Below the pieces are notes generated by a model. That model did no database searches. It was given only the letters and a program-made list of their open reading frames with translations, and was not told the origin of the DNA. This document shows positions 11,723 to 63,325 of a stretch of DNA of 64,000 bases, piece after piece. The position numbers were made by a program, and so were the translations under genes. Each line of letters begins with the position of its first letter. Within the stretch, counting starts at the first letter, position 1. The stretch comes from Malania oleifera (lineage: Eukaryota; Streptophyta; Magnoliopsida; Santalales; Ximeniaceae), in NCBI RefSeq assembly GCF_029873635.1, contig NC_080421.1, positions 38,110,617-38,174,616 on the forward strand. The letters are read 5' to 3'.

Positions 11723-11784
11723 TAAGACAATTTGTATTGCCACTCAGCCGCCGCATCTCCCACTACACCCCAAATCCTTCACAC

Positions 11785-28477: not shown

Positions 28478-28600
28478 TTAAATGAGGGCTTGGATGCCAA
28501 GTTGTTGCATCTCTCTTAGCCTCCAGACTGGGATGGCAGCTCCCCCATCTTCATCCATTTGTTGCATAGCCCATGCATAGTATACAGTGTGGATGGTATC
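28478..28600 (-). CDS. TIM44: TIM44 last exon
   Basis: 40 codons and a TAA stop, from DTIHTVYY to QQLGIQALI. The acceptor on the minus strand reads CATAACAG directly before GATACC. This segment is highly conserved across plant TIM44 proteins. Confidence 0.93.
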
Positions 28601-31600
28601 CTGTTATGCAATATTCACCAAAAAGAAGTTAGATTAGCAGACAACTGGAATAACAGGATAATAAGTTCACTCAACAAAAGCTACCATTAAAGAGAGAAGA
28701 AAACCAAACAAAAAAAAACATAATAAAACAAAACAAAAAACAAAAAAACAAAAGGGAACTGGGTGAGGAAGGGATGGTGAAATTCAAACCCACCCACGGG
28801 GTGTAATGTGGCATCATCCTGTTACAAGTAAGTCATGCCATGTCCCCCATATCAAACACATCCAAGGCCCCTCTCCTGGGTACAAAAAGGTGGGTAAAAT
28901 GAGGTGATTAGTGTATCAGTTGGGTTTGCTCCAAGTTGGCAAGAGGTTCAAGCTTGGTAGGAGTAGGACTTTGTTTGAAAGGAAAGCAAAATAAAAGCTG
29001 TGAGGTCCTTTTGCTTATCATTGTATAGTTCTAAATGCCTTATAATGATACAATATTCCTCAAATTGTTAAAAAAATCAAATCAAATCAAAAACATTAGG
29101 TTAACGACATTTAAAAATAGAGTGGTATGCCCTTCGGAATTGGGTTTATTACAAATGATAGAAAGGGGTTTGAATATGGTCTGCATTAAAATCAGCAATG
29201 TAGTGCACATCTACAAAAGCAGTAAGGATAAAAGTGAGCATGCACAATAGATCTGGGCCATTGTGCCTAGGAAATTTCATACCATACATGCCGTCATTTG
29301 GACGGCTGAAATCATGGTTGGAAAATCAGATCCCAGACGTGATTTTGTTAAATGTGTTGGTTCACCGAACAGAATTGATGTGCAAACAAAACAAGGCATC
29401 AAAACAGGACTGGAATGAACAAAGTGAATCCAATATTTGGATACACAAGGAATCTAGTCTAGAATACCAGGTCAATTCCATTCCAATGTTTATTTTATGC
29501 GAGGAAGTAGGTAATGTAATCACACTTACGTTAAATTACCAATATATTCTCATGTGTATAAAAAATTAAAAAGCAAATTTACACTTTTAAGAGTTGAACA
29601 AATATATTTGACAATATATGATGCAACAAATAAACTCATTCATAATAAAGGAAGATATAAAACTGCCAATATGACCACCAGTAAATTTAAATCCTTGAGA
29701 GCCACAATGTATTTTGATTACTTCAAATGGGGTCCAGACTAATACAGATTTCTTAATTAACAGAATTGCAATTCCACCCCACCCATGGGAATCACTATTC
29801 CATTTCCAGATTATTTTTCGCAAGTACCAATTATTCCAAATCTACCTAAAAACATTCACAACACCCATATTCTATCCCTTCTGAAGCTTCTCAACAGCCT
29901 CCAACATCCCATCACGAGGAGCCTAAACCAAACATGCTCTTGATATCTTTTTGAGGCAGTTCACTTAGATCAGACCCATCCAAAGATTAAGGTGAATCTC
30001 AATCCCCTCTCCCCATCATCATTCCCAAACTCCTTTTTCTCAACTCCATCTAGCTCATCGTCCTTTTTGACCCTCGCATATGTTTCTTCATCGTCATTAT
30101 TTGAAGTTTTTCCTATTTGAAGGTTGTAGAGTCCTAGAGAGATTGGACTTGGGCAGAGTCCTTCTCTGTTCATCTTCAAATACAATCACTCATGCAACAG
30201 GTGGGCAAGATTTCCAAGTGGCTGCTAAGTGGTTTTCCAAATGCTTGTCAATCTTTCGCCTCTTGCAATGAGGTTTTCATAGCATTAGTGTGTGGTACTG
30301 AATGGCGAATCGTTTAAATGAGATGGGAGAAGGGAAGGAGATTTTCAGAGTTCATCCCATGCAGCTCAAAAGGTGATGGTTTGCAAAATTTTGTGAAGAG
30401 GTTTTGCAAGTTGGCTAGAGATCTTCGTCCTTGATTAAGTGGCAAAGGTGGGAGAAGGATGTAAATGACATGATCAATTATGGAGTCATGTGTGATGGCG
30501 GGGAAACGTCAGACCAGTTCTTGTTGTGGAGGTGAGTTACAATTGAAGGAACCTGAGCATTCATTTCTGGAAGCCATGAGTACGCATTCAGAGAAGATGA
30601 TTCCTAGAGTCAAGGTGGGAGAAGGATGTAAATGACATGATCAATTATGGAGTCATGTGTGATGGCGGGGAAACGTCAGACCAGTTCTTGTTGTGGAGGT
30701 GAGTTACAATTGAAGGAACCTGAGCATTCATTTCTGGAAGCCATGAGTACACATTCAGAGAAGATGATCCCTACAGTCAAGGTGACTAGTAGTACTGAAG
30801 GGGCTGCAAGGAAGTTCTTTATCTAAGTTGGGCCAGTCACTCAAACAGGCCTATATTCAGGGTAATAATGGCCAAATCTAGAGCATTATTTGGAAGGAGT
30901 GGAGAGTTCTTTTTACACCAGATGGGCCTATCTATTGAACAGGCCCATAATCTCAACACTGCTGACAACCCAGGAGGCAGGTACAATAGCCCATGAGGTT
31001 GATAAACTTCCTAGTAAGAGTAAAGGGATTCTTTGGAAAGAATGAAGAGTTCTTTTTTTTTTCCCAACTAGGCCTATCGATTGAACAAAATCATAATCTC
31101 AACATTGCTGAAACAACCAAGGCAGCAGGTGCAATAGCCCATGCAGCTGATTAGCTTTCTAATAAGAACCAAGGTGTTTTATTTGTGGTGTTTCAAGTAG
31201 CAGAGAGGCCTAAAGTCTTCTCATTGCAATACCAAATCCCAAAGGCGCAAGTATAAGGATCAGGGCTGATTGCCTGGGGTTGATGGAGTAGTTGGGGGAA
31301 ATTCTCAGGCAGAGCAGGAGCTGCAATCAGTTGGAGACCAGAATGAGAAATGTTTTGGTAATAGTTTGCACCAAGAGGAGATGGACATTTCAGGGGGGGA
31401 GACAACAGTGGAAAAATTATCAAAAGAAAAAACTGTGGGTATGAGTGTATAAGCATTGATCAGCAAGGAACGTGGGGAAATATTAGTATTGTGTGCTTAA
31501 TAATATTAGTATATTACAAATTCAAACAATTATTAAAAGAAAAAACTCTGTGGGTATGAGTGTATAAGCATTGATCAGCAAGGAACGTGGGGAAATATTA

Positions 31601-34600
31601 GTATTGTGTGCTTAATAATATTAGTATATTACAAATTCAAACAAGTGGGGAGGAAATTTTTTTAAAAATAATGATGCAGGAAAGTTTTATGTTAGAGAAA
31701 TCTCAGAGCTGCTCCAAGTCTGACTTAGGCAACGGAGGAAATCATGCTGAGGAAAAAGAGGGGGGATATTTGGGTTCCCCGCGGAGGGCGGGGGGTGTTG
31801 GGGGAACAAGAATCAAGATAAAATTGATGTTTTGGGATGAAAAACTGCTGGTAAGGAAATCAACTCAGTTAAGTTTAGGGGGCACAAGGTTTGTACTCGT
31901 CCAAAGGTGGTACAGATGGGAATTGAAATGAGATCATTCGAGTGGAGTAACAAGAAAATTTTTAAGGGGAGATACAGAGGGTAATTTATGTATTGTGGAC
32001 GATCCAACTGTTAAGAAGGGTGCAACAAGAAGGGTTAACAAAGGTGAGGAGAAATGGACAGATGCTTCAGATAATGACAGTGACAGTGATACAGATAGTT
32101 TGAAAGTGATGGGAGGTCGCTTTTGGATGAGATTCAAGAACACTACGGATATGTGTCTGACTTGTCAGATTTACCAGGGGATATATCATATGTGTTGCCA
32201 TCTCCATAGGATGGATTGGAGGGGGTTTCTATTTTTTAGGATGAGGAATTTTGAAAGAGAAATTGTGTAAGGATGGAATTCCTCCCACCCTTGTGGACAA
32301 GATTACTGGGAAGCATTTAGAAGCTCAAAATTTGATGGATAAGATGGGTTTACTGTTCATGGTCTGATCCCAGGGCAAATGAAGTTTGTCTTGATGGTGG
32401 TAGAAATAAGGTGAAGCACAAGAGAGAACTACAACATTTGAAGTGCTCAGTGAACTATAGTGGAAAGGGTTTTAAGAGGTTATCTAGGCTAATTCTTGTT
32501 AGTTTTTATTGAATTACATTTTTTCCCTTTTTTTTTTTTTTTATTGAGGACTTCCTGCCCTCGCCTAGGTTGTAATCTTCTCTCTGGTTTATTTCTTGAT
32601 ATATCTTCTTTTCTTACAACAACAACAACAAGCCTTAAGGTCGCACTAGGTGGGATCAGCTACATGAATCCTCCTCCGCCAATTCACCCGATTCAGAGCA
32701 TTTTCCTCCATTAGATTAATGGGCTATTAAATCCTTCCTCGCTACCTCATTCCAAGTTATTTTAGGTCTACCCCTACCTCTTTTCATGCTAGAAACCATA
32801 ACTAACTCACTCCTCCTCACAGTGCACTACTAGGTCTGCGTTTCAAATGCCCAAACCATCTAAGTCGCCCCTCCCTTATCTTGTTTTCAACCGGTGCTAT
32901 GCCTAAATTATTGTGCATATGTTTATTTTATCTTTTAATGTTAAACCACTCATCCACCTTAACACACGCATCTCTTTTCATTTTTTGTACATGTTCTTTC
33001 TTATTTGCCTAGCATTCTAAACCATAAAGCACAGCTGGCCTTATAACCATCTTATAAAACTTTTCTTTTAATTTTAAGGGTATTTTACGATCACACAACA
33101 CACTTGACGCACTCCTCCATTTTGCCCAACCTGTCTTAATTCTATGTACATCTTCAATTTCCCCTTCACCTTGCATAATAGATCCAAGATATCTAACTCT
33201 ATTAGTACTATTAATCTCTTGATTACCTAGTTTAATTTTCTCTCTTTGCTACTCCTTACCTTACTGAAATTACATTTCATATATTTTGTCTTATTCCTAC
33301 TTATCCTAAACCTTTTAGACTCTAATGTGGCTCTCCAAAGTTCCAGTTTAGACTCCACTATGCTCCTACTATCATCAATCAACATGATATCATCCGCTAA
33401 CAACATACATCAGGGGGTCTCATTCTGAATATTCCTAATAATTTCATCAATTACTAAAGTAAAAAAGATAAGGTCTCAAAGACGAATCTTGATGTACACC
33501 TACTGTTATTGGAAACTCTCTAGAATCTCCTCCTCCAGTCTCAACACTAGTCACTACTCTATCATACATATTCTTAATGACCTCCGTATATCTACTGCAA
33601 ACTCCCTTCTTTTCTAATACCCACCAAAGTACTTCCCTAGGTACTCTATCATAAGCTTTCTCTAAGTCAATAAAAACCATATGCAAGTCCTTCTTTTCCC
33701 TAAATTTTTCCATTAAACTTCTTAAAAGATAAATAGCTTCCATTGTTGATCACCCACGCATAAAACCAAATTGATTTTTTGAAATCTTCATTTCTAATTT
33801 TATTTTGTGTTCAATTACCCTTTCCCATAATTTCATCATAGATAATCTTAATTCTGCAATTATTATTGCAATTTTGAATATCACCTTTGTTTGTATACAA
33901 AGGTACTAACGTACTTTTCCTCCATTCTGGAATTTTCTTGGTTTTTATAATATTGTTGAATAGATTAGTTAACCAAATAATTCCTTTATCCCTAAACATT
34001 TCAAAACTTCAATTGGTATTTTATCTGATCCTATAGATTTTCCACTTTTCATCTTTTTTAATGTCATCTTAGTATTAAGGATTCTAATTTTGCGAACAAA
34101 TCTCCTATTTTTAATCCTCTCTTCATTTGTCACTTCCAAGTTCAATCTTTTAATTTGATTTTCATTAAACAAATTATCAAAGTATCTTCGCTACCTCTCT
34201 TTTATGTCTTCTTATCTAATTAAGACTTCACAATTCTCAGCCTTTATACATTTTACATTACCTAAATATTTGCATTTTCTTTCTCTAGCTCTAGCAAGTC
34301 TATAAATTTCTTTTTCTCCTTCTTTTGTATCTAATTTAGTATATAAAGTGTTATAAGTTCTATGTTATGTTTAACTTCATTGATAGTTTTTTTGCATTTT
34401 TTCTCGTTTCTTTATATTTTTCAAGATTTTCTATATTCCTACAATTTTGCCATATTTTATACCAATTTCTTTTTGTCTTAGCATTTTTTTTTTTTTGGAC
34501 TTATTCATCCCACCCACCACCAACTTTCTTTACTACCCAAGTATCTTCCTTTGAACTTACCTAAAACCTCTTTCACTATCCTTACAATAGAATTTGTCAT

Positions 34601-37600
34601 ATTATTCCAAACAATGTTTGCATCAACCTTATCCCCTATTGTCCAATCACACTCTTTGCTCATTTAATCTTTGAACGAACAACGAAATAGAGGAATATCT
34701 CAGAAGAGGACAGTGAGCATGATAGTAATTTTGCATGTCATATTGGACTATTGTTGGATGAAATTCACCCAAAAAAAAAATGATTATGTTGCCAAATATT
34801 CTGTCGCACTTTAGGATATTTCTTATATGCCTCCTCTAATAGAAGGTTGAGAGGATATAGCTATCTTTTAGGGAAGGACCAGGGTGTAAACTTGGCAGTG
34901 ACTAATCAACATGGGACAGTTATTACCTACTCCTGCAAATGAGGATAGCGCAGGATTTGGTGCTCAAAAACTTCCAGATGATATGGTATTGTGGCTGGGT
35001 GACCCTGGAGGGAAGGAAGTTCGATTGAACAGGGCTAAAAGAAAAGCGACTGAAGGTCAGCAGAAACTGGTAAGTTTATAGAGCTCTATCAATTACAAAG
35101 GAAAGGGATTAAAGAGAGGTTTTATTGATCTGCTAATTACTTAGTTTAGTTTTTTTTTTTTTTTTCCTTATTTGTTTTTTGTCTTGTTTTCATACGTTTT
35201 TCTACCATAAGGGTCTCTTGTCCTCTCTCTAAGATTGCAACTGACTCTTCTCTATCTTAACATATATCTTTTGCGATAAAATTTTTTTATAAAAAAAAGA
35301 CTTAGTTTTTTGGCAGGAAATATGCCCAATTTTATCAGAAGATGCCATTTTTCTAACAAAATATCTTTGAAAAAGATTAATTTCTAAAGTTAATTATAAT
35401 TTCAAATTTCTTTATACAAGCATGATGTAGTACAATACTTTAAAAACATTGGGCTAATTGGAGTTTTTTTGCTAGTATAAGCTTTTAAATATTTTGAATA
35501 TAAATACTTTTGGTCCAGAGAAAGTTTGAGAAAATGCCTTGTTTTTATTCTATTCTTTAATCAAGCAAACCAAGCATGAAAATAAATAAGAATTGTCATT
35601 TTGATCATCATTTTGCATGTGCATCCAAACACAGCAATCAAATTCCAGCCTCAATTCTGTTCCCTTTTTGATTCTTGATTCTACTAGCCAGGGAGGGGGG
35701 AGGTGTTGGGTTGTTAGGGATTCAGATCCAAGATTCAACTTGTTCAAGTTGGCATCCAACATAAACTGTACCATTAGATAAAAACAGTAAACTAAATAAT
35801 TGAAACACTACCTGAACCATGGGCATTAATTATAGGCACAATAATAGTGACATCAAGTGTCCTATCATTATTTCTTTCATTATTTCTTTCCCCTTATGCA
35901 GTAAATAAAACAAAGAAAATTCAGCACTTACTTTTCCCCCCTCTCTTACTGAACCATTTTTATCACGTATACAGTAGACCTGCTGCGTTTGGAACTATAA
36001 AAATTCACAGGGTAAAAAGCCATCAGTAACAGCATATTTTCTCTACAATAGTAACTTGTGGCAAAAAAGTTGAAAAGAATGCTGACCGCTAAAATGATGA
36101 TTGGAGTGGATCCCATCATTTTGGTTTCTCTTACTTCCACCTCAGATACATGTAGGATCTGCATTAGAGGAGATGTGAATCAATTACAAGACGACAACAT
36201 ATCTATATAACAATTCAGTGTGTGTTTTTTTAAACCAGGAGGAAATGACTCCATTCAGGATTCTTATTATAACTAATTCATTCAATTGAAAGAACAGGTC
36301 TCATAATAATCAACAGTTGTTTATACTACTACACAATATTCATACTTGAACCATTGCATTTGAAAATCAAAATTCGGAACGAGTAATCTCTTTTACCAAC
36401 TCATTAACCTAATTTGAGATGCTATTTTTTAAGTTTCTTCATGTAAAGAATTTGTGTCCTTGAGAGGCTATCATCACATTGCATTTGTTGAGGGTGCGTC
36501 TCTAGCTTCAATTGCATGAAGAAACCAAGTAAAGGCATAAAGTCTCTGTTGAGCATGAGAAGTCCGTGTGACAGTGAGGAACCCTCATTGCAATGTTTGT
36601 GAATAAAACTTGGACCAGCTTGATCTTGGCTGTCAAGAACATTGGATTAGAGGGATTACTCAAGCAGTCCTTCTGAATGAGTGATATAAGACAAGAAGCA
36701 AGACCTTGGGAAGATCGTGGTCGGAGAATACTTAAGAAGAATTGGATAGAGTATTGCTGGGTTTAGTTAGTAGTTATTGTGTTTAGCTTAATTAAGATAG
36801 TATTATGTGTATTTAGGGGCTTGTTTGTTATATTTGTGTATCTAGGGGTATGTTTGTATAATGTAGCTTTATGGGTATATGTGAAATTTCATGTGTTCAG
36901 AGGTTTTCCTATAAATAGTGTGAGAAAGCCATGTTGTAGGCAGTTGTTAAATTTGACCTAAAGTGAAAATGAGTTTTCCCCTTGCATCTCCTCAATGTAA
37001 GTTTTCCCCTAGCATCTCCTCAACGTAAGTTTTCCCCTTGTATCTCCTCTCTCCTCCCTTCCCTTTTCTTCCACTCTTCAATTTCTTCTTAACTCTCCCA
37101 AGGTTGCAAACCACTGATGCTGCCCCTGCATCATTTGGTATCAGAGCCCAACTTCAATCTCTGTTCTTCTTCTTCTTCTTCTCCTTCTCCATTAATCTCT
37201 CCCTCTGTTAGTCTATCATCACCCAATCTCTGTTCTGAAATTTCACTATTACTAAAAAAGCAAAAAAAAACAAAAAAACAGGAAAGCTGTTTCTGAACAA
37301 ATTCCAGCCATGTCCCAAATCTCAACACCACTTTCCAGTGACCATCCTGCAACACCACCCACGCCATCGAAGACACAACACCCTGACCCCCCTTCCCCTA
37401 CAATTTCAATCCAATCACCGGAAAATCCCAATGCGCCAGCAGAAAGCTGACCAGTTGACAGCCCTTCGAAATCCCCGGCATCCTGTAATTTTCTCATCAC
37501 ACCACCACTATCACTGTACTCCCTTCCCTTGATCTCCCTTCGTCCCAAGAATCATCGCCAGAAAGTCACCGCCAGAAACTCATGCATCCCACACACCACT

Positions 37601-40600
37601 ACCGCGTGAGAATACTTGCCAGAATCTTCTGCAACTTCCAGATCACAAGAAATTGGTTCCAGCCACAAGAAATTGATGTTTTCTCCTAAGATTTTGATTT
37701 GCAGCATGATATTTTGGCTCCAAAATTGATATTGTGCAAGTAAGTGCAATAATTTGGCACAAAAAACTAGAAATCGAAGAATTAGTGTACCATCAGCACT
37801 TTAGAGTGGATTTGTCACTGCCAGCAATAACAAATCAGTTTGCATCATTGTGTTGTTTACTTTGTGAATTTGGTCACATTTCAGCACAACAATTAAGACT
37901 ACATATGACTTGAAGGAGGTTCTTGCGAAATTAGGAGCCAGGTTTGTGAGTGAATCGTGTTGGGGCTTTTTGGTGATGTATAGTTACAGTATATATAAAC
38001 AAATCCAGTAACATGGTGATCACTTACTGGAAAAATGAAAGGCTTCTGTCATACTCTGAGCATAATATCGATTTCATACCTTTTTTAAGTATGCGAAAAA
38101 GTTATGCAAATTCATTTGTGATGGAAGATTTCCTATGAATGTGTTCCTAGAAACGGGATCATTCGCATGCAACTTCATCCGGAACCCCATCCAAAGCCTT
38201 GTGACATTTTGGCTTGATAACACTACCTTATATGTTTGTGAAAGATGTTTGGTTCCTATCCAAATGGGTGACTATTTTGATAATGTTTGGTGTTGCATCA
38301 TACCCATGAATACTGACCATGTACTCCATGGTTCTTCTTGGATAGATAATTTGGGTGTGACTCAAGGATTTGAGAACACATTTGTCTTCCTTTATAATGG
38401 AAAGAAAATCATTTTAAAGCCTGCTCTACCAATCAATCAAAACAAGAATCTACTAGAGTTACTCAACTTGAAGACACTGCAAGCAAGGAAATGAATGTGT
38501 TTGAAGACATCCAAAGTCTTTCAAATAATCTTATCTTATTGTAAATCATCCCCAATGACTTCATTGATGCCAATTCTCAATTAAGGACTATGATGCTCTC
38601 AATGGAACATGGTTTCTTGTATCACTCAAGTGCTGGCATTCAAGGAGTCCAAGTTTGCTTCTTACTTCTGATCCTCCGGCATTTCAAAATTTGAGATTGA
38701 TTTTTTTCTAACTTGGGGACAGTTGATGTAGGACAAGCAAGACCGTGGGAAGATCCCTGTTGGAGAATACTTAAGAAGAATTGGACCAAGGATTGTTGGG
38801 TTTAGTTAGTAGATGTGTTTAGCTTAATCAAGATAGTCTTATGTGCATCCAAGGGCTTGTTTGTAATATTTCTGTATCCGGGGTTATGTTTGTAATGTAA
38901 TGCAATTTTAGGGGTATATGTGAAATTTCATGTGTTTAGAGGCTTTCTTATAAATAATGTGTGAAAGCCATGTTGTAGGCAGTTGTTGAATTTAAATTAA
39001 AGTGAATGTGAGTTTTCCCCTTGTATCCCCTCTTTCCTCTCCTCCCCTTCCTTTCTTCAATTTCTTCTAATGTCTCCCATGGCTGCAGATCCTTGATGCT
39101 GCCCATGCATCAATGGGATTACTCAAGTAAAGGCATAAAGTCTCTGTTGAGCATGAGGAGTCCATATGACAGTGAGGAGCCCTCATCACTATGTTTGGGA
39201 AGAAAACTTGCACCAGCTTGATCTCGGCTGTCAAGAAGATTCAATTAGAGGGATTATTCAAGGAGTCATCTTGCCGAATGGGTGTAGACACCACATTGGA
39301 CCAAATGACTAAATACCATTTCCACACCCTTTCTCAATCTCCCACTTTAATTTAGGATTTGATTATTCAAGTGTTTGTGGTGTGCATGATTAACTGCTTC
39401 CACAATGCAATAGGATTGATTTAGTTTAGTTTTGGTTACAATCGACTCAAGTTGGACGCAGACTGCCAATGAGGCCAACAGTTTAGCTGAGATGGGAAAT
39501 ATGGAAGAAGACATTAAAAAAGTTAAGGATAACTTTTCTTTCCTTCCTAGGAAACTAAGAATCAGATTCATCAGATTTGGAATTGTTGATTTGAGGAATC
39601 ATGCAGGGCAAGGGCAGAACTTCAATAGTCCATTCAAGAGTTTTAAGTTTCTTCACCGAAATCTTTTCAGTGATTAAAGGTCATGAGATTGGGAATGATA
39701 TAGAGCTACAGGAAGATGTAGATGATGAGACGGAGTCCAGATCACCTGCACAGCAAGTAATTGTGATGCGAGACACAAAGGTTAACCTGAATGTCTCGGC
39801 TGAAGATAAAATTCCCGAGAAAAACAGTTTCCAACTTGCCTCCAATATATAGTTCTTATGTGAAGGTTATCATGTATGTTGTGGGTGAAGGTAATTCCAA
39901 GAGAAACAATTTTCAGATCATCTCCAATCCCCAGTTATTCTATGCCTAATTCTATTCATGTTGGTCCTATTTTTTATATCATTGAAAACCTTATAAAGAC
40001 CCAAGCAGGTTAATGTAAGCACTAGTTCTGGCATTTTATCTATTAAGTGTCAGAAACTACTGGATCTGCATGAAACATTTAATATGGAGTTGACTAGGCA
40101 CTAATTCCAGCATTTTACCTATTAGTGTCAGAAACTACTCAATCTGCATGAAACATTTAATATGGAGTTGACTAGGTGTTCATCTTCTGTCAATTATAAG
40201 GAGGGAGATAAGAAGGTGGGTAGGAGTGCAGAGAGGTGAAAATACTTTGAATGTGGATGAGCTAAGGGATATAAAGAGAAAAAAAAAGGGGGGGGGGGTG
40301 TTATTAGAGTTGTCAACTAAGAAGCAACAACACTCGAAAACCCCTCAAGTCTCAGTGCATCGAATATCAACACTTTTTCAAAATGCTGGGATACATGACA
40401 CAAGTCAGAAAATTAAAAAATATATATTGTTTCAGCAGATCATGGATACTGACAATTTGAGACATACGCATACCTTAAGACATATAGGGGGGCATGTATC
40501 TTAGCAAGACATTGCCTTTCAAGTCCCTCATTTTTTTTTCCCAAGTGGGTGGGAAGAAGGGGTGTTTCATTGACCATTTGACCCAACCAATCTACACTTT

Positions 40601-46600: not shown

Positions 46601-49600
46601 AGTAAGGGTATTATGGTCATTCCCATTGTAGTTGACAGATATTATAAATAGAGGGAGAGACCTATGATTGAGTTAGGTCTTTCATTTTACACAATTATTC
46701 AACATGGTATCAGAGCATGATTCCGTAACCCAAACCCTAAGTGTTCCCACCACCATCAAACCGAAGCCCAAAACCCAAAATCCACTGCATGTCCATCATC
46801 ATAGAAGGTTTTTCAGTGACACTGTAACCCTAGAAAACAGCCAGCAGCAGCATAGAGTCAGACCAGTCGCTGGAATTTTCTGAGTGACACTGCCAGTTCG
46901 AGAACATCAAATCCACTATAGATTTGTCAAAACCAACACCATAGTGACCCACAGACACTGCCAATCTCTCCCCCTCCCACTGAAATCCCACCTTCAGGCA
47001 GTGTCTCATGCGCCAGACGAAGGCTGCCAGGGCCGACCCCATGCGCCGGCGCGTGAAGCCACTTTCAAGCATGATTTTGACCTGAAATGATCCAGCAATG
47101 ATCCATTCTCTCTATTAACATGTTTTTGAAGTTTTTTGTGATGTTTTTTCCACAAAGATCTCGCCTTTTTTTAATTGATCAAGTGCGGCAGCCAAGGAAT
47201 GGTTGTTTGATGCTTCATGAAGCAGTTTATCAATGGTTATTGAGTTTATTGGGTCTGAAACAGTGGGATTTGCTGTGTTTTTTTATTCAATGATCTAATT
47301 CCCTCCATATGTCAAAATATCAAGCTGTTGGAGGTGTTAGTAACAGTCATTGGTGACTTTCTTGGAGCAATGACAGTGCTCATAAGCTGTTTTTTTTGTG
47401 AGGCTATGGCAGTGTTATATAAGTTAATTGGTGATTTCTCCATGGTAGTTTCAGTGGTTCACTTCTCCAATGGTTTCGGTGCTATGAATTGCTTTCTTGG
47501 GGCTGTGTCTGAGTTTCTCGGTGCTGTGGCAGTATTGTACTGATTTATTTTGTGACTTGTTCATGGCTGGTCACCTTGTCTGTGGTTGTTCCGATTGTTC
47601 CAACAATTAATCTTATGGTCATTGGTTTGAGTTTGGGAATGTTAGGATGGAGTTTGCAAATCCCAGAAGTATGGTTCCTTCATTAATCACTTGTTTAAGT
47701 GAACCGCGTATTGTGACTATATCAGAGAAGGGGTATTCAAGGTTTCTACAGTATCAGCCGTCTCAACAAGCATCTTCTCACATTCCGTCTTTTGCCCAGA
47801 AAAGTAATCTTACAGTCTGTATGTCATCTAGCATCCTTCCTACTAGTCCTTGGGATATCGATTTTGCTGCCACTGACCATATAATAGATGCAACCAACCT
47901 CTATTTTTTTTCTCCAATATCCTAAAAATTTACCTCAAGTTACCCTTGCTGATGGATCCATTATTTCTATTATGGGGATAGGAACAATAAATCCTACTCC
48001 TTATCTCTCTTTCTTCTACTTTATACATTCCTAAATCTCCTTTCAAACTCATGTCAGTTAGTATTACAAAGTCACTAAATTGTTCTGTCACATTCTTTCC
48101 TAATTCAGTGGTTATTCAGGATTTGAAGATGAGAAAGACAATTGGCACAAGATGTGGCTTGTGGACCTTACTACTTTGAGTCACCTTCTCCACCCATTGC
48201 CTGCACAGTCGCAGCTACACCACTTCAAATCCATTGTCGCCTTGATCATCTGTCATTGGATAAGTTGAAATAGCTAGTTCCTACATTAAGTTTTGTATCT
48301 AATCTTGAGTGTGATTCTTGTCAAATGGGCAAGTATCATCTTGTTCCCTTTGCTTCCCAGGTTGACAAACGAGTGGTTAGTCCTTTCATGCTAGTCCATT
48401 CCAATATTTGGGGTCCTAGTCGTGTCACATCAAAATTGGGGTTTAGGTACTTTGTTACATTTGTTGATGACTACTCTAGGATGAGTTGGTTACATTTAAT
48501 GAAAGATCTTTTTGAGTTTTTTGATATCTTTTGTGCCTTCCATTCCCAAATAAAGACTCAATTTGATATGCCAGTGATACTTCGTATTGATAATTTTAAG
48601 GAGTGCTTCAGTTCCCAGTTCAGTACTTATATGACTAGCTCTAGTATGATCCATCAATCCTCTTGTGCCCACACTCCACAACAAAATGGGGTTGCAGAGC
48701 GGAAAAACAAACATATTCTTTAAGTCACTCGTATATCAAATGATGTCACCAAAAGTTTTTGGAGTGTTGCTGTGCTCACAAGTCACAGCTTGCTCCCTCA
48801 TCAATATTTGACATCTCTTGTCCTTGGGGGTAAAATCACATATTCAGTTATCTTCCCTCAGGCTCCTTTGTTCTCCCTTCCTCCTTGTATATTCAGTTTT
48901 GTGTCCTTTGTCCATCAATTAACTCCAGGAATGGATAAGTTGGATCCTCGTGTTATCAAATGTATCTTTTTGGGCTATTCCTATAATCAAAAAAGGATAT
49001 AGATGTTATAGTCCTACTTTACATCGATTTTTTTTCTCTGCATATGATGTCACCTTCTTTGAGTCTACACCATAGTAGTTTGATTCCTTGTGTTCTGTCG
49101 ACCTTAATGAGTCTCTTCCTCTATCTTGCCTTCTAGATCCAAACCTTGTATCTATGCCCAATCCTCCTACATCTTCATCCAGTTTGAGTCCTTCTCGTTG
49201 CTTGGATCATCCCAATTTGCAGGTATACACATGGCGACTGCGAGGGGAAGTGCCTCCTCTAGCATCAACTATTGTGCCTCTAGTTCCCTCACTGGATGAT
49301 CTTATTTCCCAAAATGTTAATCCTCATATAGTTGTTTGAAAAGGTAAACGCACTTGTGCCCAACATCCAATCTCTATTTTGCTTGTTATGATTTCTTTTC
49401 ACCCTCTTATTATTGTTTTTCTAGTACATTGTCTTCCGTTGCACTTCCAAAATCTATTTCTAAATCCCTATCCCATTCCGAGTGGAGGACAACAATGGTT
49501 GAACAAATGCGTGCACTACATGAAAATGATACTTGGGATTTGGTACCTCTTCCTCCTGATAAGTCTATGGTTGGTTGTCGTTGGGTATACACTATGAAAG

Positions 49601-52600
49601 TCAATCCTGATGGTTTTGTGGCTCGTTTGAAGGCCCGCCTTGTTGCTAAGGGGTTTACTCAAGTGTATGGTTTGGATTATTTAGAAACATTCTCTCTAGT
49701 CGCCAAACTTGCCTCAGTACGTCTGTTCATTTATTTAGCCACCACTTGTCATTGGCCTCTACATCATTTAGATGTGAAGAATGTTTTCCTACATAGCGAT
49801 CTTCATAAGGAGGCATATAAGGATCAACCACCAGGGTTTATTGCTTAGGGTGAGTTAGGCTTAGTATGTTGACTTAAGAAATCATTGTATGTTTAAAACA
49901 ATCTCCAAGGGCGTGGTATAGCCATTTCAATGTTGTAGTACTTGAGTTTGACCTTCATCAGTGTGCAGTAGATCATTTTGTTTTTTGTCGTCATACTCCA
50001 TCTGGTAGGATTTTACTTATTGTGTATGTGGATGGCATTGTGATCACTGGTGATGATGATCGAGGCATCCAAGACCTAAAGCTTTTCCTATAGAGTAAGT
50101 TTCAAACCAAGGCCTTGAGACCATTGAAGTACTTCTTGGGTATAGAAGTATCGAGATCTCATATACGAACTGTATTGTCATAGAGAAAGTATGTTCTTGA
50201 TCTTTTAGATGAGACAGTGTTGTTGGGATCCAAACCTATTGATACACCCATGTATCCCAATAGTAAGGTAGTGTTAGACATGGGTGATATGTTGCCTAAC
50301 CCAGGCCGATGTATGAGACTTGTTGGAAAGTTGAATTATCTCAGTCACCCGACCAAATATATCCTTCACAACAAGTGTTATGAGTCAGTTTCTCAATTCC
50401 TCAAGAACAAGTCACTGGAATGCAGTAATTTGCACTTTGAGATACCTTAAAGGTGCACCCAGGAGAGGTCTCTTTTATCAAGATCAAGGTCACACTCAAA
50501 TTCAGAGATATACAGATGTTGATTGGGTCGGGTCACCTTCCAACCAAAGATCCACAAGCAGGCATTGTATCTTTTTCGGTGTAATTTGGTGTCTTGGAAA
50601 AGTAAGAAACAAACTGTGGTAGCCAGGTCAAGTGCTGCGTCAGAATATAGGGCTATGGCGCACACTACATGTGAACTTGTTTGGCTGAAGAACATGTTGA
50701 AAGAACTAGGTTTCCACATTCTCAGCCTATGGAGTTGATGCGTGATAATCAAGCTGCTATTCATATTGCCTCCAACCCTATCTTCCATGAGCAGACAAAG
50801 CACATTGAAGTTGATTGTCATTTTATTCGAGAGAAACTTGTATAGAAGCTTATTACAACCACTCATGTGAAGTCTGAGTTTCAACTTGCTGATTTGTTTA
50901 CTAAGCCTTGGGAGGTGCTTGTGTCAAATTCATTTGTAACAAGGTAGGAGCATATGATATATATGCTCCAGCTTCAGGGGGACTGTTAATGGTTATTTAG
51001 TCATTTAGCATCATTATTAATTGTCAAAGTTTGGTTTGTAATAAGTGTAAGTTAGTAAGGGTATTATGGACATTCCAATTGTACTTGACATATATTACAA
51101 ATAGAAGGAGAGACCTATCATTGAGTTTAGGTCTTCCATTTTACCCAATTGTTCAATAGCCTCCTTTGTTTCACATTTGTTTAATTAATAAAAAAATAAA
51201 CTACTTAATAAATAAACTAATAATATTAGTTCTTTTTTGAGTTTATTTTGTTGACTTATGTGAAACAATATTTAACGAACTTAAATAAATAAAATAAAAT
51301 ATTTTACAAATTAAATATAAAATTGAGCTCATTACCGAGCCTAATTGAGCTGCTCATGAGCTTAAACAAGCAGAGCCTAACTGTGTTCAAGCTCGAGTTG
51401 TTTATTAAACAAGCCTAAAAATTGAACTCGGGAATCACTTATTTTAGATAATAAATGAACCCAAACGAACTCTAATCAAGTCAAGCTCCATGAGCGGCTT
51501 GGTTTGCAGCCCTATTCTCAAGCATGGTATCATTGGGGTTGAAGATTTCCATAGAACCAGCAATTCTGTGTAGTATCAACTCAACCTTCATCTCCTTAAT
51601 TCCCAAGAAACCAGGGGCTTGTAACATTAAAGTCTTTCGTCCAATCAACTTGGTTGGCAGTTTGTACAAAATCCTATCCAAAGTCCTTGCACGTAGGCTC
51701 AAAAGCACAATTTCAGAAGTTGTTAGAAAGCACTAGCATGCCTTCATTGCAGGTAGGCAAATCATGGATGCTGCTCTGATTGCCAAATGAAGTTGTGGAC
51801 GCCTAAAAGAGTAGTGAGCTGGATATGGAGAAGGCTTTTGACCATGCAAACTAGATTTTTCTATGGTACATTCTCAGAAGAATGGTTCTTTGGGGAATCT
51901 AGGTGCAAATGGATCCATCAGTGTATCTCTACCCCATCTCTCTCAGTACTAGTTAATGAACGACCATATTGATTTCTTCAGATTGTCTCATGGTTTGAAA
52001 CAAGGTTACCTCGTTTCTCCCCTTTTGTTTACCATGGTTGTGGAAGTTTAAGTGTTATGATAACTAATGCAAATGAAGGCAGCCTACCCAAGGGACTTAG
52101 CATCGGAAGGAACAATGACTCTACGAACATCACCCATCTCCTTTTTGCGGAGGACACTGTCATCTTTTGTAAGGATGAGCCTAAGGAAATTCTTAATCTT
52201 AGATGCATCCTCCTAAGTTTTGAAGTAATTTAAGGATTATAAATAACTTTGGGCAATAGCGTGAAAGCATTCCAATTGGGAGTTGTGATTGTGGTCCTTT
52301 GCTTGCAAGTCTCCTTGGTTGTAAGCTTGGAGCCTTCCTATTACCTACCTACCCCCCCACCCTGACGAGCCAAGTTCAGGAATAAAGGTATTAGGGATCC
52401 CATGGTGGGTAGGTTTGAAAAGAAACTCACTGATTGGAAAAAGAACTTCTTGTCAAAAGGCGATAGACTCACTCATTAAAAATACTCCATCCAATCTCCA
52501 TATTTACGTACAGTTGCCAAGAGATTGGAGGGTATCCAAGGAAGATTCCTTTAGGAAAACACGGGTGAGGTCTTTAAATATCACCTTGTTAAATAGGGGT

Positions 52601-55600
52601 GGTTAAACAACATTTGCAAAAGGGCTGCTTTGGCCTTAGATCCCTCATTTATCTTTAATAAGGCCCTTTAAGGGAAATGGCTTTCGAGATACATGACAAA
52701 GATAAATCATTTCTAGAGGGATGTCATTGCTATCAAGTTTGATCTCCCATCATAATGGTTGAACCTCTGAAGATTCGAACAAAGCTCATGGTACAAGTGT
52801 TTGGACTAATATCGGAAGGGGATAGGGGAAATTCTTCTCTCTCGTCATCTTTTGTGTAGGGAATGGAGAGGATGTGTTCTTCTAGCATAATATCTAGTGC
52901 GGCAAATCCTAGTTCAGCTCCTCTTTCCCTTCCATCTTCATGCTAACTCACACAAAATGCCCTTATTAGCCAACACATGGAGTTCTAGTCAAGGGATTGT
53001 ATGGGATATTCCCATGAATAGGAATGCTTTCAAGTAGGAGTTTGATACTTATAGATTTTTTTCAGCAATCATTATAAGTTTCAACGCCAAGCCAATTCCA
53101 ATGAGCTGAAGCAGGCTTTGAGCAAGGATGGGAACTTCACAGTTAAATCTTTCTACAAACACCTTTGCTCCCCAGTAGAGAGCAATACCAATTTCCCTTG
53201 GAAAACAACAACTCCTACGAAGGTTGATTTTTTTTTAGATGGGAAGCTATTTTTAGAAAGATCCTTACTATTAAAGCTTGATATACATTGTTGGCCCACA
53301 ATCCAATAGCTTAAGCTTTTAGGTAAAGTGGTACTTTAACATGAAATCAGAGCAGGTTACTAGAAGGTCCTAGGTTCTAGTCTCATTGCCTATGTTTAAA
53401 TAAAAAATTAGTTGTTTCCTATAATAGATGTTCTCTCTCATGTACTTATCTCTCCACGTGCTATTGGGCTGCACGTGCAGGGGGGGTGTTAAAGCTTGAT
53501 AAACATCGTTGGCCCACAACCTAATAGCTTAAGCTTTTAAGAAAAAGTGGAAATCTAAAACTTACCATGGGCAATCTTCAAAAAAATGGTTTCTCTTTTC
53601 AATAAATGCTTCCTATCTTATCCCGAAACCGGAGATACTAGAGGACTGCCCTTCACCCTACCCGAAGGAGAAAGAAAAAAGGGCGTGGACCCGTAAACTC
53701 CCAATCTCGCATCGGCTAGCAGGCCGACGGCACCAGCACCCCTGATACATAGCCTAGGAATATGCACTACTTTTCCCTCAGTTTCTTCCATGCCAGCTGT
53801 GTTTGTTATGCTAGGAGCAAGAGGAAGTGGTTGATCACATCCTTCTGCATTGTTCATGGACCAATAAATTGTGGAACTTAGACCCGTATAGAACATCCTA
53901 AAAAATAAGTACTTTTTCAAATAAGTACTTTTATAAGTACTTGTATCAATAAGCAGTGCTTGGTTTACAATTAAATGAGTACTTATTTTAAAAATTACTT
54001 TTTCAAACCACTTTTTTTTTAGGAAAATAAGTATTTTCTGCAAAAAGTACTTTTCTAGGAAAAGTATTTATCTGAATAAGTACTTATAACAAGTAATCCT
54101 AGACTGCTTTTACATGAGTACATTTTTAGATAAGCATTTTTTTTCCTAGAAAAGTACTTCTCCATAAGTCGTTCCAAATGATAAGCGGGTCACTGGGACT
54201 CGCTGCATGAACAGTTGAAGGTGCACTGTGGGCTTGAAAAAGGATCAGATCAAATAAGGAAATCTCTCCCATTTATTCCCCTTGCTATTTTTTGGGCAGT
54301 GTGAAGAGAAAGAAATAGAAGACCCTTTGAAGGAATTAGTTCTCCAATATAGGCTATTATGAACCATTGGATTGCTATGAGCGTATGATCCCTAGTTGGC
54401 ATTCTGGGCTGGTTGGAAAGGACTCCTTTGTAACCCTTAATTTTCTTGATAATTTTCAGTAAGAGATGTTTCTCTCTTGTTGTTTAATTTGTACTTGGGT
54501 GGCATCCCCTTGATGCCTATTTTTAATAAAATCTCCCTTTGCTGATCAAAAACAAATAAAAAATAAACATAAAATTTCAAAAAAAAAAAAAGGTGATGGA
54601 TGACATCTATTTATGGTCCTAGTGAATCAGCCATGAGGATGAATTAGTCTAGTTTGTGTTGTCCTTGGTGGTGTATGGGAAGGAATTTTAATGTCATTAA
54701 AACTTCTTCAAAAATATTAAGGGTATAAATGGTCACTAAAGAGGGATTTTGATTTTACTTTCATTAGAGATTTTCCTCTTTCTAATGAACAATTCACTGG
54801 GTCATCTTCAGGGGAGAGACTTGTTTCCACACACATTGATAGGTTTTCTTTACAGAACTAGGAGACTGTTCCCCATATCGTCCAGGAAATCCTGTTTAAG
54901 CCTATTCAGATCACTTCCCTGTTCTTAACAAAGCAAATCCAGTGAAGTAACGTACTACATCTTGATATGAAAAAATGTTAACGCATCACACTTTCCTTAG
55001 TAGCATGCAAAATTGATGGATGGAGTGTCAAGAGCAGAGTCAAAAAGGTTCTAACCTCATTAAGAATCTGGGGTTTGTTAAAGAAGAAATATTAAAGTTC
55101 GAAATAAGGGTATTTTATGGAGAATTTAAGAGGAGGAAAACTGGAATTTTGAATCAGATAGCCAATACTGCTAGATGGAGGATAGTTGTCCACCTGGTGA
55201 TGAAGAGTGAGTTATAAGGATTAATTTCAATGATGAATTGAAGGAGGTTTTTATGGAGGATGTAAGCTGGAGGTACAAATTCTTGACTCAAATGGGCTGG
55301 AGCGGACGAGTGCAATATTTGTTCGTTTCATACAGTTGTCATTGGCAGGAGAAGTTTTATTCGGTAATGGAATTTAGTTTCAGGAGTAATAGTTCAAGAT
55401 CAAAGATTAATTCTAGACGGAATTTTAGTACTTCACAAGTTGTTGGACATATAGGAGGTTTAGGTGAGGCCTCTGATTGATTGTTTAGACTGGAGTCCAA
55501 CATAAAAGGAGAAAGTCCAGTGGTTAGAGTGACCTTTCTGATATGGAGGAGGGGTTTCACGCCTTCAAAAGCTGGAACCTGGAAGAGGTCATGTCAGTCA

Positions 55601-58600: not shown

Positions 58601-59824
58601 AGGACTTCTTTTTCCCCTTGTCTACTAAAAAAATATGCTATTTAAGTCCAGGATGTATTGTCATTTAACACAACAAATTCTTCACTTGATGACTCAAATG
58701 TGATAATCAATTAATTTCTAACAAGCAAAACCTGATGAGATATGAAGAGAATAAAAAAGAGATGACCTCATGGTTCAAGAGGGCAAAATTGAAATTTTAT
58801 ACAACTCACAGATTAACACATGCCATATTTTTATATCATAGTTAATGTTAGAAACGTACACCATACTACCATAAAAAAGTTCCCCTACACATAACATAGA
58901 CAATTGTGTTGGAACTTACTTCACATACTCGAGAAATATCAACAAATATAAGTGAATAAGATAGCAAAGAAAATGAGAAATCTGCTACATAATGAATCCC
59001 ATCTTTTCAAAGAAAAAACAAGGAAATATTGAAGTCTTAGGGCAACAGAAGGAAGATAGAGATTGAGAACACTATATATCTTACCTTGTTGTCGAAGAAG
59101 ACACCTTGGCTTTTAGAAGCCCGGTGTTCTAATTTACACCGTTCAATCACTTCAGGACAGCAATACTTATTCAAAGTTTCAATATCTCCCTATAGAAAGT
59201 AAAATATCCATCATTCTTATGAGATCAAGAAATTCCAACAGCCCTCATCTAAGCCACCATTGAAAATAACATTTAGAAGAGGAAATAGAACCAAATGGAC
59301 AAAACTTTCAGAGTCTAGAGTTAACTCAAGACTTACCTTAATATAAGCATTAAGAACTGGTTTCACCACTTCTTGAACTTCAGCTACAAACTCTGGTAAT
59401 GAGAATGATCTAGACAACACAAAAATGAGCAAAATATTATAAAATAATATAATAAGTTTAAATGAATAATCTGAAAATAACACCAAAGGGCATAACATCA
59501 TACGGATCTCGACGCCGTATTTCCTTGAATGATAGTGCAGCATGTGTTTCTCCAAAAACGCTTTCATTAATACTGTAAAATAGAGGGTTGACATATTAAC
59601 AAGAAACAGTGCGTAAGAAGTTCTAAGCTACATTATTATTATTATTACATTTTTGAAAATGCAAAACTATTGGAATGTTGTTTTCTGGTGAAAGGCCCCT
59701 TGGGGGGGTGATTAGAGGATAGAGAGGCAGGTGGGGAGTAGAGAGATTAAGCAACATACTCCTGAATTTTGTGAACAACAGGATTATCACTTGTCTCCCA
59801 CCTTTCCCGCATGTCCTCTGCAAG
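28478..59824 (-). CDS. TIM44: TIM44, mitochondrial import motor subunit (C-terminal exons)
   Basis: Seven exons in order of transcription: 59760-59824, 59504-59572, 59337-59409, 59085-59189, 36087-36158, 35932-35994 and 28478-28600. Together they are 570 bp, 189 residues plus stop, in one continuous frame with GT-AG introns and consistent phases. The product is the C-terminal domain of TIM44: [77 protein letters not shown] and [16 protein letters not shown], ending [18 protein letters not shown]44 sits on the matrix face of the inner membrane and tethers mtHsp70 to the TIM23 channel; this domain contacts membrane lipid. Five introns besides the unseen 5' part measure 187, 94, 147, 92 and 7331 bp, and one measures 22926 bp; the two long ones are filled with transposons. 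The N-terminal exons (presequence, coiled-coil region) were not found and probably lie beyond 64000. Exons look intact, so I infer a working gene. Confidence 0.9.
30445..30778. repeat. 167-bp tandem duplication
   Basis: Two nearly identical units, 30445-30611 and 30612-30778, each starting AAGGTGGGAGAAGG, with a partial third start (AAGGTGACTAG) at 30779. It lies within L1 remnant A. Confidence 0.93.
30880..31180. repeat. Imperfect tandem repeat, about 150 bp
   Basis: Two diverged units share GGAGAGTTCTTTTT-like starts, a GGCCTATC(T/G)ATTGAACA segment, CATAATCTCAACA and a CAATAGCCCATG segment. It lies within L1 remnant A. Confidence 0.7.
31415..31642. repeat. 114-bp tandem duplication
   Basis: Two almost identical units, each with GTGGGTATGAGTGTATAAGC and ending TTACAAATTCAAACAA. 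Their near identity shows a recent event inside the old L1 remnant. Confidence 0.92.
32616..34680 (-). mobile_element. RTE-clade LINE, decayed
   Basis: On the minus strand the reverse transcriptase reads [20 protein letters not shown], with [10 protein letters not shown] and LLADDIML (near 33390). Upstream there are [19 protein letters not shown] (near 34040) and endonuclease-region scraps. The 3' end is a clear TTG repeat (CAACAACAACAACAAG from 32616 on the plus strand). It is closely related to the RTE at 18150-20150. Several breaks are present. No certain target duplication; the upper limit is approximate. Confidence 0.88.
34681..35300 (+). mobile_element. L1-type LINE ORF1-end remnant B
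   Basis: A second copy of an ORF1-like tail: an acidic start (EEDSEHDS), then coding text to about 35120 that ends with a duplicated-looking KGKGLKRG segment. A T run and a 3'-UTR-like sequence ending in an A-rich stretch follow near 35280. It parallels 32050-32615 of remnant A in layout but not closely in sequence. Confidence 0.4.
35932..35994 (-). CDS. TIM44: TIM44 exon FQTQQ...GGK
   Basis: 21 codons, [21 protein letters not shown]. The acceptor TTTTTATAG precedes TTC and the donor GTAAGT follows AAA. It is separated by only 92 bp from the preceding exon. Confidence 0.93.
36087..36158 (-). CDS. TIM44: TIM44 exon ILHVSEVE...IIILA
   Basis: 24 codons. The acceptor AATGCAG precedes ATC. The donor is GTCAGC after GCG, a weaker GT site than those of the other introns. 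Placement is fixed by the conserved [12 protein letters not shown] segment on one side and FQTQQ on the other. Confidence 0.92.
36526..36681. repeat. Direct repeat flanking the gypsy element (left copy)
   Basis: About 156 bp from CAAGTAAAGGCATAAAG to GAATGAG, repeated with scattered differences at 39124-39282 just outside the right LTR. It is too long for a target duplication, so it represents an older tandem duplication or a rearranged locus. Confidence 0.85.
36682..39112 (+). mobile_element. Internally deleted LTR retrotransposon (Ty3/gypsy-like)
   Basis: The left LTR is about 36682-37133 and the right about 38724-39112. Both start TGAT(A/G)TA(A/G)GACAAG and end GCATCA. A perfect TGGTATCAGAGC primer-binding site begins at 37136, and a CTTGGGGACAG purine tract precedes the right LTR. 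The immediate flanks are ATGAG and ATGGG. Only 1.6 kb lies between the LTRs. It contains text (38135-38494) like the stretch after the aspartic protease of plant gypsy elements ([17 protein letters not shown]). Reverse transcriptase and integrase are absent. A broken, old element. Confidence 0.75.
39124..39282. repeat. Direct repeat flanking the gypsy element (right copy)
   Basis: Diverged copy of 36526-36681, starting twelve bases after the right LTR. Confidence 0.85.
39283..40940. other. Intronic sequence, mostly unassigned
   Basis: Holds an 80-bp-class tandem duplication (about 40019-40180) and scattered open frames, for example 39432-39677 and 40226-40504, which read like degraded L1 ORF1 but without a firm motif. 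A G run lies near 40290. Confidence 0.4.
40019..40180. repeat. Tandem duplication, about 81 bp
   Basis: Two units share GTGTCAGAAACTACT and TCTGCATGAAACATTTAATA and end GGAGTTGACTAGG. Confidence 0.88.
41270..42310 (+). pseudogene. L1 ORF1 relic
   Basis: Open stretches at 41003-41569 and 41920-42306. The first carries [15 protein letters not shown] and [20 protein letters not shown], a pattern seen at the start of plant L1 ORF1 proteins. A short CxxC segment (CACTHCG) near 41790 may be the relic of its zinc knuckle. The frame is broken between the pieces. Confidence 0.5.
42600..43300 (+). pseudogene. L1 ORF2 endonuclease relic
   Basis: Reads [19 protein letters not shown] and [12 protein letters not shown] (APE-type endonuclease start, the E of QETK being catalytic), then, in other frames, a [15 protein letters not shown]-like segment and a [16 protein letters not shown]-like segment near 43177. 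Frameshifts separate these motifs. It is interrupted at 43300 by the solo LTR. Confidence 0.85.
43301..45218 (+). mobile_element. Large solo LTR (1.9 kb)
   Basis: Begins TGATTACGCATC and ends AGTCA, flanked by the perfect 5-bp duplication GCCAA (43296-43300 and 45219-45223). The L1 reading text continues across it. No primer-binding site or coding domain lies inside, so it is an LTR left by recombination. An inverted repeat near its start (GCATAATTAGGTGTTTAAATG against a TTTAAATGCCTAATTATG-type partner at about 43361) is notable. The size suits large gypsy-type LTRs; the superfamily is not shown. Strand is arbitrary. Confidence 0.75.
45224..45917 (+). pseudogene. L1 ORF2 segment before the RT core
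   Basis: [20 protein letters not shown], then [20 protein letters not shown] and [13 protein letters not shown], typical of plant L1 ORF2 between endonuclease and reverse transcriptase. An [13 protein letters not shown] segment near 45865 starts the RT domain. Two frame changes and stops are present. It ends at the hAT insertion. Confidence 0.88.
45926..51514. mobile_element. hAT-like nonautonomous DNA transposon containing a copia element
   Basis: The ends are the inverted repeat TAGGGCTGCAAAC(A/C)AAGCC, flanked by a perfect 8-bp duplication TTCTCAAG (45918-45925 and 51515-51522), the hallmark of hAT elements. The subterminal regions are rich in AGCTCAAGCTC and GAGCTC-type words. Without the copia insertion at 46531-51158 the element is about 956 bp and has no transposase. 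It interrupts the L1 just after the start of its RT domain. Confidence 0.92.
46531..51158 (+). mobile_element. Ty1/copia element, old and broken, nested in the hAT-like element
   Basis: LTRs are 46531-46704 (174 bp) and 50984-51158 (175 bp), with a perfect 5-bp duplication GCCTC (46526-46530 and 51159-51163). A TGGTATCAGAGC primer-binding site follows the left LTR and a CTTCAGGGGGAC purine tract precedes the right one. The order of integrase (about 48180-48720), reverse transcriptase (about 49440-50060) and RNase H (about 50450-50910) is that of copia. The reading frame has many breaks. The LTRs differ at about 17 of 174 sites plus one indel, near 10 percent, which suggests an age of several million years at commonly used plant rates. 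Confidence 0.92.
51523..53263 (+). pseudogene. L1 ORF2 reverse transcriptase relic
   Basis: Resumes after the hAT element with [20 protein letters not shown] and [20 protein letters not shown], then a [15 protein letters not shown] segment near 52140 in place of the catalytic F-A-D-D, and a later [12 protein letters not shown] stretch. ISWIW-type thumb and connection pieces follow to 53263. Several frameshifts and stops, and the second catalytic Asp position reads Glu-Asp. Confidence 0.88.
53269..53560 (+). mobile_element. TRIM 2
   Basis: A 292-bp element of the same family as 16617-16912. The terminal repeats are 53269-53341 and 53487-53560, with a primer-binding-like ATCAGAGC after the left one and a GCAGGGGGGG purine tract before the right one. 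It is flanked by the perfect duplication CTTAC (53264-53268 and 53561-53565). It interrupts the L1 between the KILT-like and [10 protein letters not shown] segments. Confidence 0.88.
53608..53793. other. GC-richer insert of unknown origin within the L1
   Basis: About 185 bp, less AT-rich than its surroundings, with words such as CATCGGCTAGCAGGCCGACG. It separates the L1 segment ending NKC from the one reading QLCLLC. No inverted or direct terminal repeats were found. The composition recalls organellar DNA, so a nuclear mitochondrial insert is possible but unproven. Confidence 0.4.
53794..54595 (+). pseudogene. L1 ORF2 zinc-finger tail and 3' UTR
   Basis: QLCLLC then [18 protein letters not shown] is the zf-RVT motif at the end of plant L1 ORF2. 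It is interrupted by the AAGTACTT-rich block, resumes near 54190 ([15 protein letters not shown]-like text near 54290) and runs to an A tract near 54580. It contains stops. Confidence 0.8.
53884..54188. mobile_element. AAGTACTT-rich palindromic block (MITE-like)
   Basis: About 300 bp with around ten copies of AAGTACTT or near variants in both arms, which can fold on itself. The outer words GACCCG and CGGGTC would pair. It interrupts the L1 tail, so it is an insertion. No convincing target duplication. Confidence 0.5.
54596..55930 (+). mobile_element. L1-type LINE fragment, internally deleted
   Basis: Starts in the endonuclease ([12 protein letters not shown], then a [11 protein letters not shown] segment and [10 protein letters not shown] near 54833). 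It continues with the pre-RT region ([10 protein letters not shown], about 55066) and jumps to a late ORF2 segment ([20 protein letters not shown] near 55690). The RT core is missing. Frames are broken. It follows the A tract of the previous L1, so it is a separate copy. Confidence 0.7.
55931..56490. other. Unassigned intronic sequence
   Basis: Short open frames on the plus strand (56023-56461) show no recognised motif; they may be further decayed L1. Confidence 0.35.
56491..56835. mobile_element. MITE-like inverted-repeat element
   Basis: Purine-rich left arm (GAAAAGTGAAGGGGGG) and pyrimidine-rich right arm with CATTTTCCTTGATAAGCAAA, the same word found in the MITE-like elements near 16940 and 17720. 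CCTGGAACTTAA at about 56494 and TTTAAGTTCCAGG at about 56817 form a 12-bp outer inverted repeat. Confidence 0.4.
56836..57280 (+). mobile_element. L1-type LINE tail fragment
   Basis: Contains a zf-RVT-like remnant followed by [14 protein letters not shown] (57106-57150), the conserved end of plant L1 ORF2, and a short tail. Frames are broken. Confidence 0.65.
57281..59084. other. AT-rich part of the large TIM44 intron
   Basis: Runs of TATA and ATAAT words (57380-58080) and a stretch (57520-57725) built of GAAATTT-type words. No gene was recognised. The 3' end carries the donor side of the TIM44 intron. Confidence 0.5.
59085..59189 (-). CDS. TIM44: TIM44 exon GDIETLNK...FFDNK
   Basis: 35 codons; acceptor CTATAG, donor [24 protein letters not shown] matches the conserved helix of the TIM44 C-terminal domain. 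Confidence 0.94.
59337..59409 (-). CDS. TIM44: TIM44 exon [11 protein letters not shown]...NAYIK
   Basis: One base completing a Pro codon, then 24 codons; acceptor TTGTCTAG, donor GTAAGT. Confidence 0.94.
59504..59572 (-). CDS. TIM44: TIM44 exon INESVFGE...RRRD
   Basis: 69 bp in phase 2 on both sides; acceptor TTTTACAG, donor GTATGA. It encodes a (D)[18 protein letters not shown]-type segment ending RRRD and two bases of Pro. Confidence 0.93.
59760..59824 (-). CDS. TIM44: TIM44 exon LAEDMRERW...HKIQ (first exon seen)
   Basis: [20 protein letters not shown] then Q and two bases; donor GTATGT. The acceptor GGATGCAG before CTTGCAGAG gives phase 0. A second AG six bases further in is possible. 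No earlier exon was found up to base 64000. Confidence 0.88.
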
Positions 59825-61369: not shown

Positions 61370-61515
61370 AATAGCATTGTGGAAGGTACACAGATTCTTG
61401 ATTCCACTTTAGCAGCCAATGCGGTGATTGAGTAAAAAGGGATGACAGTGGCTCTCCGCAAACTGGATATGGAGAAGGCTTTCAACCATGTTTGCTGGAA
61501 TTAGTTCTCCATTTG
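61370..61515 (+). mobile_element. L1-type LINE RT scrap
   Basis: VEGTQILDSTLAANAVIE, a stop, then KLDMEKAFNHVCWN: the RT palm segment that normally reads DFEKAYDHVDW. Both ends are truncated. Confidence 0.75.
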
Positions 61516-61759
61516 ATAGAAAGGATGGTCATTGGAGATTGATGGTACTACTTCTACCCACTTATTTGGTATTTTAGTAAGTGTCTGAGGAATCGCAATT
61601 TTGATTCCTTTCCAACGTTTGATATTCTTCAACATAATGTAATGAAAATGTCATTTTTCAAAAACACCCTTAACATACAATTATTTAACTTCCTAAATTT
61701 CAAATATATGACTTAAACTCAACATTATTTATTGTTTAATTTTTTGCATTTTTTAGATC

Positions 61760-63190: not shown

Positions 63191-63197
63191 CCTTCTA

Positions 63198-63325
63198 ATC
63201 AATGGAGACGTGGCTCTCCAAGTCTTTCAAGAGGTTTAAGACAGGGAGACCCACTTTCCCCTTCACTGTTCGCTTTGTTTATGGAACCTCTTAGCAAAAT
63301 GGTGACCAAGACTGGAGGTAGGATT
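63198..63325 (+). mobile_element. L1-type LINE RT scrap
   Basis: [20 protein letters not shown], then PLSKMVTK: the RT motif preceding the catalytic FADD box. Both ends are truncated. Confidence 0.85.

Follow-up and report, generated by a model that had tools for sequence, protein, structure and literature searches.

Transposon-filled introns of 22.9 kb and 7.3 kb between Tim44-domain exons of a TIM44 gene in Malania oleifera

Introduction

Large introns filled with transposable elements (TEs) are already well documented in plants, as reports on grapevine, Chloranthus, ginkgo, and Arabidopsis attest. For grapevine, 2,697 EST-supported introns of 3-100 kb were reported in 2,563 genes; these introns are >80% repetitive with copia and LINE elements among the dominant types, and large introns caused 188 EST clusters to align with several annotated genes each (PMC3058033). 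In Chloranthus and magnoliids, LTR-rich introns have grown while the coding length was conserved, and introns >40 kb are discussed (PMC8626473); in ginkgo, 16,939 introns with TE insertions, corresponding to 12.45% of introns, are longer than 20 kb (PMC5118899). Introns >5 kb in protein-coding genes of Arabidopsis consist mainly of transposon sequence, with one being 96.6% copia-like, and six out of eight tested were called true after RT-PCR (PMC5575664). Furthermore, loss of IBM2 in Arabidopsis and rice leads to early polyadenylation within heterochromatic introns (PMC7145194). Hence, TE-filled introns of 3-100 kb, their splicing, and the splitting of genes by annotation at such introns have all been published already.

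We have analyzed a window of 64,000 nucleotides of Malania oleifera DNA, the whole stretch being referred to as the window, which contains the 3' part of a TIM44 gene, encoding a component of the motor for mitochondrial protein import, with two large introns. Like those of grapevine, they belong to the 3-100 kb class and include copia and LINE types; however, the grapevine introns have transcript support, whereas those of TIM44 are known here from genomic sequence alone. Among 39 genes compared in the grapevine study, large introns were mostly first introns, whereas those of TIM44 are 3' coding introns (PMC3058033). The Chloranthus and magnoliid case (PMC8626473) and the ginkgo case (PMC5118899) are presented as genome-wide patterns, the latter in a much larger genome, and TIM44 is not the gene concerned in either. 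The extremely large introns of Arabidopsis are described as rare and are smaller than the 22.9 kb found in TIM44 (PMC5575664). Introns depending on IBM2, which are heterochromatic, resemble those of TIM44 in bearing transposons and lying inside genes (PMC7145194). Among the matches listed in our literature search, no paper dealt with the structure of plant TIM44 genes, as judged by titles and the beginnings of abstracts, and one of them mentions Tim44 just in a general way.

Results and Discussion

Seven exons on the minus strand, running from position 59824 down to 28478, could be joined to one open reading of 189 codons followed by a TAA stop codon (570 nt including the stop). Their lengths are 65, 69, 73, 105, 72, 63, and 123 nt in order, and none of them carries a frameshift, an internal stop, or a lost splice dinucleotide. 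The big introns divide them into three clusters. The first comprises exon 1 of the visible part (59760-59824; donor GTATGT), in which the alignment with yeast Tim44 begins at query residue 7, exons 2 (59504-59572) and 3 (59337-59409), both assigned to the Tim44 domain by the joined reading, the Pfam match, and their splice sites, and exon 4 of the same domain (59085-59189), the strong donor of which, AAG/GTAAGA, opens the 22.9-kb intron. The second consists of exon 5 (36087-36158), assigned to the domain on the same three grounds, and exon 6 (35932-35994), also part of the domain, with the strong donor AAA/GTAAGT. Exon 7 (28478-28600) stands by itself and carries the stop codon. A preliminary description of this DNA had proposed seven small exons of 63-123 bp, read in one frame as the C-terminal domain of TIM44, and the open chain bears this out, as does a match to the Pfam Tim44 profile with an E-value of 1.8e-40; the junctions 59085/36158 and 35932/28600 given there are both exact.

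Upstream of exon 1, no obvious further exon was seen when translations of positions 59825-64000 were read by eye; the intron preceding exon 1 may therefore extend over at least 4,176 bp up to the end of the window. The mitochondrial targeting sequence and the N-terminal part that binds Hsp70 would be encoded past position 64000 or by exons that escaped recognition. Positions 62266-62553, ahead of the visible exons in the direction of transcription, hold a minus-strand L1-type zf-RVT remnant (E = 2.2e-4, under the curated cut-off), and so the intron preceding exon 1 may also carry transposons.

The lengths of the six introns are 187, 94, 147, 22,926, 92, and 7,331 bp in transcript order, in agreement with the earlier claim of introns of 22.9 kb and 7.3 kb next to others of 92-187 bp. 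All six have GT...AG ends. Both large introns, at 36159-59084 and 28601-35931 on the minus strand, are in phase 0, and the exons on either side of them are in register across canonical splice sites, as expected for introns expanded by TEs. When scored against a donor consensus, the donors reached 5, 4, 8, 7, 5, and 7 out of 8 in order, with 7 for each of the big introns. Thus, three of the six donors, those of both big introns included, scored 7 or 8, as compared to 11 of the 1,358 GT sites of the pre-mRNA, and the remaining three reached 4-5 only. The acceptor of the 7.3-kb intron, which precedes exon 7, has the poorest pyrimidine tract among the six (7 of 16 positions vs. 11-12 of 16 in the other acceptors). 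Exons 5 and 6 are divisible by three; skipping of either would therefore keep the frame at the loss of part of the domain.

The joined protein matched the Pfam family Tim44 (PF04280, Tim44-like domain) over profile positions 2-147 of 147 with 138.9 bits, the cut-off being 29.6. Searching the PDB with phmmer recovered the structures of human Tim44 (2cw9; E = 6.9e-20, residues 15-181) and yeast Tim44 (2fxt; E = 1.7e-16, residues 7-162), and both alignments span the joins of both big introns. A C-terminal Tim44-like domain was thus recognized by the Pfam profile as well as by the human and yeast structures. When the three clusters were compared with the profile separately, exons 1-4 matched positions 2-71 (E = 5.1e-16) and exons 5-6 positions 73-116 (E = 1.4e-9); exon 7 matched positions 118-147 with an E-value of 0.071, which is under the curated cut-off and, taken singly, would be weak evidence. 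Successive stretches of the profile found in order, on one strand, and in register across three clusters are far beyond chance, and the TIM44 exon chain in the window is real. No second TIM44 copy was found within the 64-kb window by tblastn with the spliced protein at an E-value of 1e-3, which matched only the places of the seven exons. No relatives were confirmed in IMG/VR viral contigs, and scans for tRNAs and with Rfam gave no match.

The 22.9-kb intron harbors a degenerate copia element (46531-51158, plus strand), which is antisense to the gene and retains remnants of integrase and RVT_2. Its LTRs (46531-46704 and 50984-51158; 174 and 175 bp) differ at 17 of 174 compared positions, corresponding to a K2P distance of 0.105, and GCCTC is present on both sides as a 5-bp target-site duplication; the element is one cleanly delimited old insertion. 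Rates of 1.3e-8 and 4.72e-9 substitutions/site/year place it at 4.0 and 11 million years, respectively. The age becomes 35 million years at 1.51e-9 substitutions/site/year, a rate quoted in PMC8626473.

The preliminary description had listed L1, hAT, copia, and TRIM insertions. The copia element is clear, and an L1-type remnant in the 7.3-kb intron (32622-33992, minus strand as the gene) passes the Pfam cut-off with an RVT_1 match at 33450-33749 (E = 4.7e-7); this stretch is 81% identical to 18155-19544. Identifiable insertions are thus present in both large introns, namely the copia element with its target-site duplication in the longer one and the L1 RVT_1 in the shorter one. For L1, the 22.9-kb intron yielded a single located match, a weak reverse transcriptase remnant at 51494-51733 on the plus strand (RVT_1, E = 0.02, 15.1 bits vs. 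a cut-off of 29.6). The same intron contains an element at 53271-53558 with copies of about 70 bp at 53271-53339 and 53489-53558 that are 86% alike, and a relative at 16619-16910 (77%); we presume it to be TRIM-like, the repeats being the sole support for this name. The hAT part of the list was not reproduced: Pfam found no hAT domain in any of the 123 listed ORFs, whose minimum length was 60 or 62 aa with low complexity excluded, or in 114 of the 131 shorter ORFs, a set taken without the 17 inside the copia element. The ORF scan also gave a second RVT_1 member and DUF7195, to which no position was assigned. Matches to OB_NTP_bind (40172-40501) and CC2D1A-B_DM14 (33972-34190), both under their curated cut-offs, and five weak matches among the shorter ORFs were taken as chance.

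Further diverged repeats, 80-87% identical, are found at 36526-39284 in the 22.9-kb intron, where the segments 36526-37133 and 38724-39284 surround an ORF of 142 aa (38066-38491). This ORF had no Pfam match; it may resemble a Ty3-type retroelement protease. In the 7.3-kb intron, two near-perfect tandem duplications were observed at 30445-30784 (167-bp unit, 98%) and 31412-31644 (115-bp unit, 97%).

Very likely, these exons are the 3' portion of a plant's ordinary nuclear TIM44 gene, the original introns of which were enlarged by successive transposon insertions; routine splicing at GT-AG sites probably still allows the gene to be expressed. Since the introns are retained, this copy is not a retrocopy. 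It could have been a young pseudogene, that is, a recently silenced duplicate split by the big introns while an intact copy works elsewhere, and the pyrimidine-poor acceptor of exon 7 would fit such a state; however, all seven exons are free of lesions despite an LTR distance of 0.105 in the copia element between them. Exons without constraint since the landing of this element were simulated in 4,000 runs with substitutions, indels, and loss of splice dinucleotides, the indel rate and substitution bias being assumed. A copy remained lesion-free in 0.55% of cases at d = 0.053 per site, as derived from the LTRs, and in 5.8%, 14.8%, and 37.6% at 0.03, 0.02, and 0.01, respectively. Because of methylation, the LTRs may have gathered mutations more quickly than the exons, and hence the simulation provides moderate evidence for constraint, not proof. 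The exons have probably been under selection, and we consider a silenced duplicate unlikely. The old insertion beside intact exons would also agree with long-term splicing across the copia element. It is extremely unlikely that unrelated repeat sequence was misjoined between true exons during assembly: repeats of such length are indeed where assemblies err, but the window is without any N, the exons on either side are consistent in order, strand, and register, and the copia element inside the intron has matching 5-bp flanks at each end, like a real insertion.

If the enlarged gene is expressed as proposed, transcription would pass through the transposon-filled stretches between the three exon clusters, and the spliceosome would pair the strong donors AAG/GTAAGA and AAA/GTAAGT with distant acceptors; the long pre-mRNA would most likely be processed by routine U2-type splicing. 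By analogy to the situation in Arabidopsis and rice, premature polyadenylation inside the intron may be blocked by an IBM2-type chromatin factor, which may in this way protect the TIM44 transcript. The same analogy could be turned around, with the insertions acting as a switch and the gene giving a regulated mixture of full-length TIM44 transcripts and others ended early at intronic transposons. Early ends inside heterochromatic introns of Arabidopsis and rice ibm2 mutants (PMC7145194) would favor this, as would AATAAA motifs on the sense strand of both big introns (25 in the 22.9-kb and 10 in the 7.3-kb intron, as raw counts not set against chance expectation). However, nothing in the window indicates use of any of these sites, and with termination after exon 4, roughly half of the Tim44 domain, from profile position 73 onward, would be missing from the transcript; we regard such a mixture as decidedly improbable. 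Very improbable is the more far-reaching proposal that the phase-0 transposon-filled introns within the Tim44 domain end a share of the transcripts early and thereby tune mitochondrial import via the chromatin state, the truncated product or its absence being functional. A transposon-driven switch of this kind finds no support in the sequence.

An ordinary TIM44 gene with enlarged introns calls for caution in annotation: a pipeline working without transcripts would probably give three TIM44 fragments or drop exons 5-7, an error of a type already described in the grapevine report (PMC3058033). If spliced as modelled, TIM44 would be one more housekeeping gene tolerating tens of kb of transposon in introns of its coding region.

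Two further features were observed in the window on the downstream side of TIM44. A very young-looking copia element is located just downstream of the stop codon at 20502-26010; its two 350-bp LTRs are identical, AAAAG is found on both flanks, and it contains a single uninterrupted frame of 1,443 aa. When this frame was searched in five separate pieces, four revealed gag, integrase, and reverse-transcriptase domains, and the fifth gave none. In addition, 11S globulin (legumin) seed-storage genes form a tandem array at 1892-14750. The copy at about 11.7-13.7 kb matches solved 11S globulins and Pfam Cupin_1, the copy at about 6.7-8.7 kb is 86% identical to it at the DNA level in a repeat comparison, and 1892-4039 is a repeat of the 3' part of the 11S globulin gene together with the stretch downstream of it.
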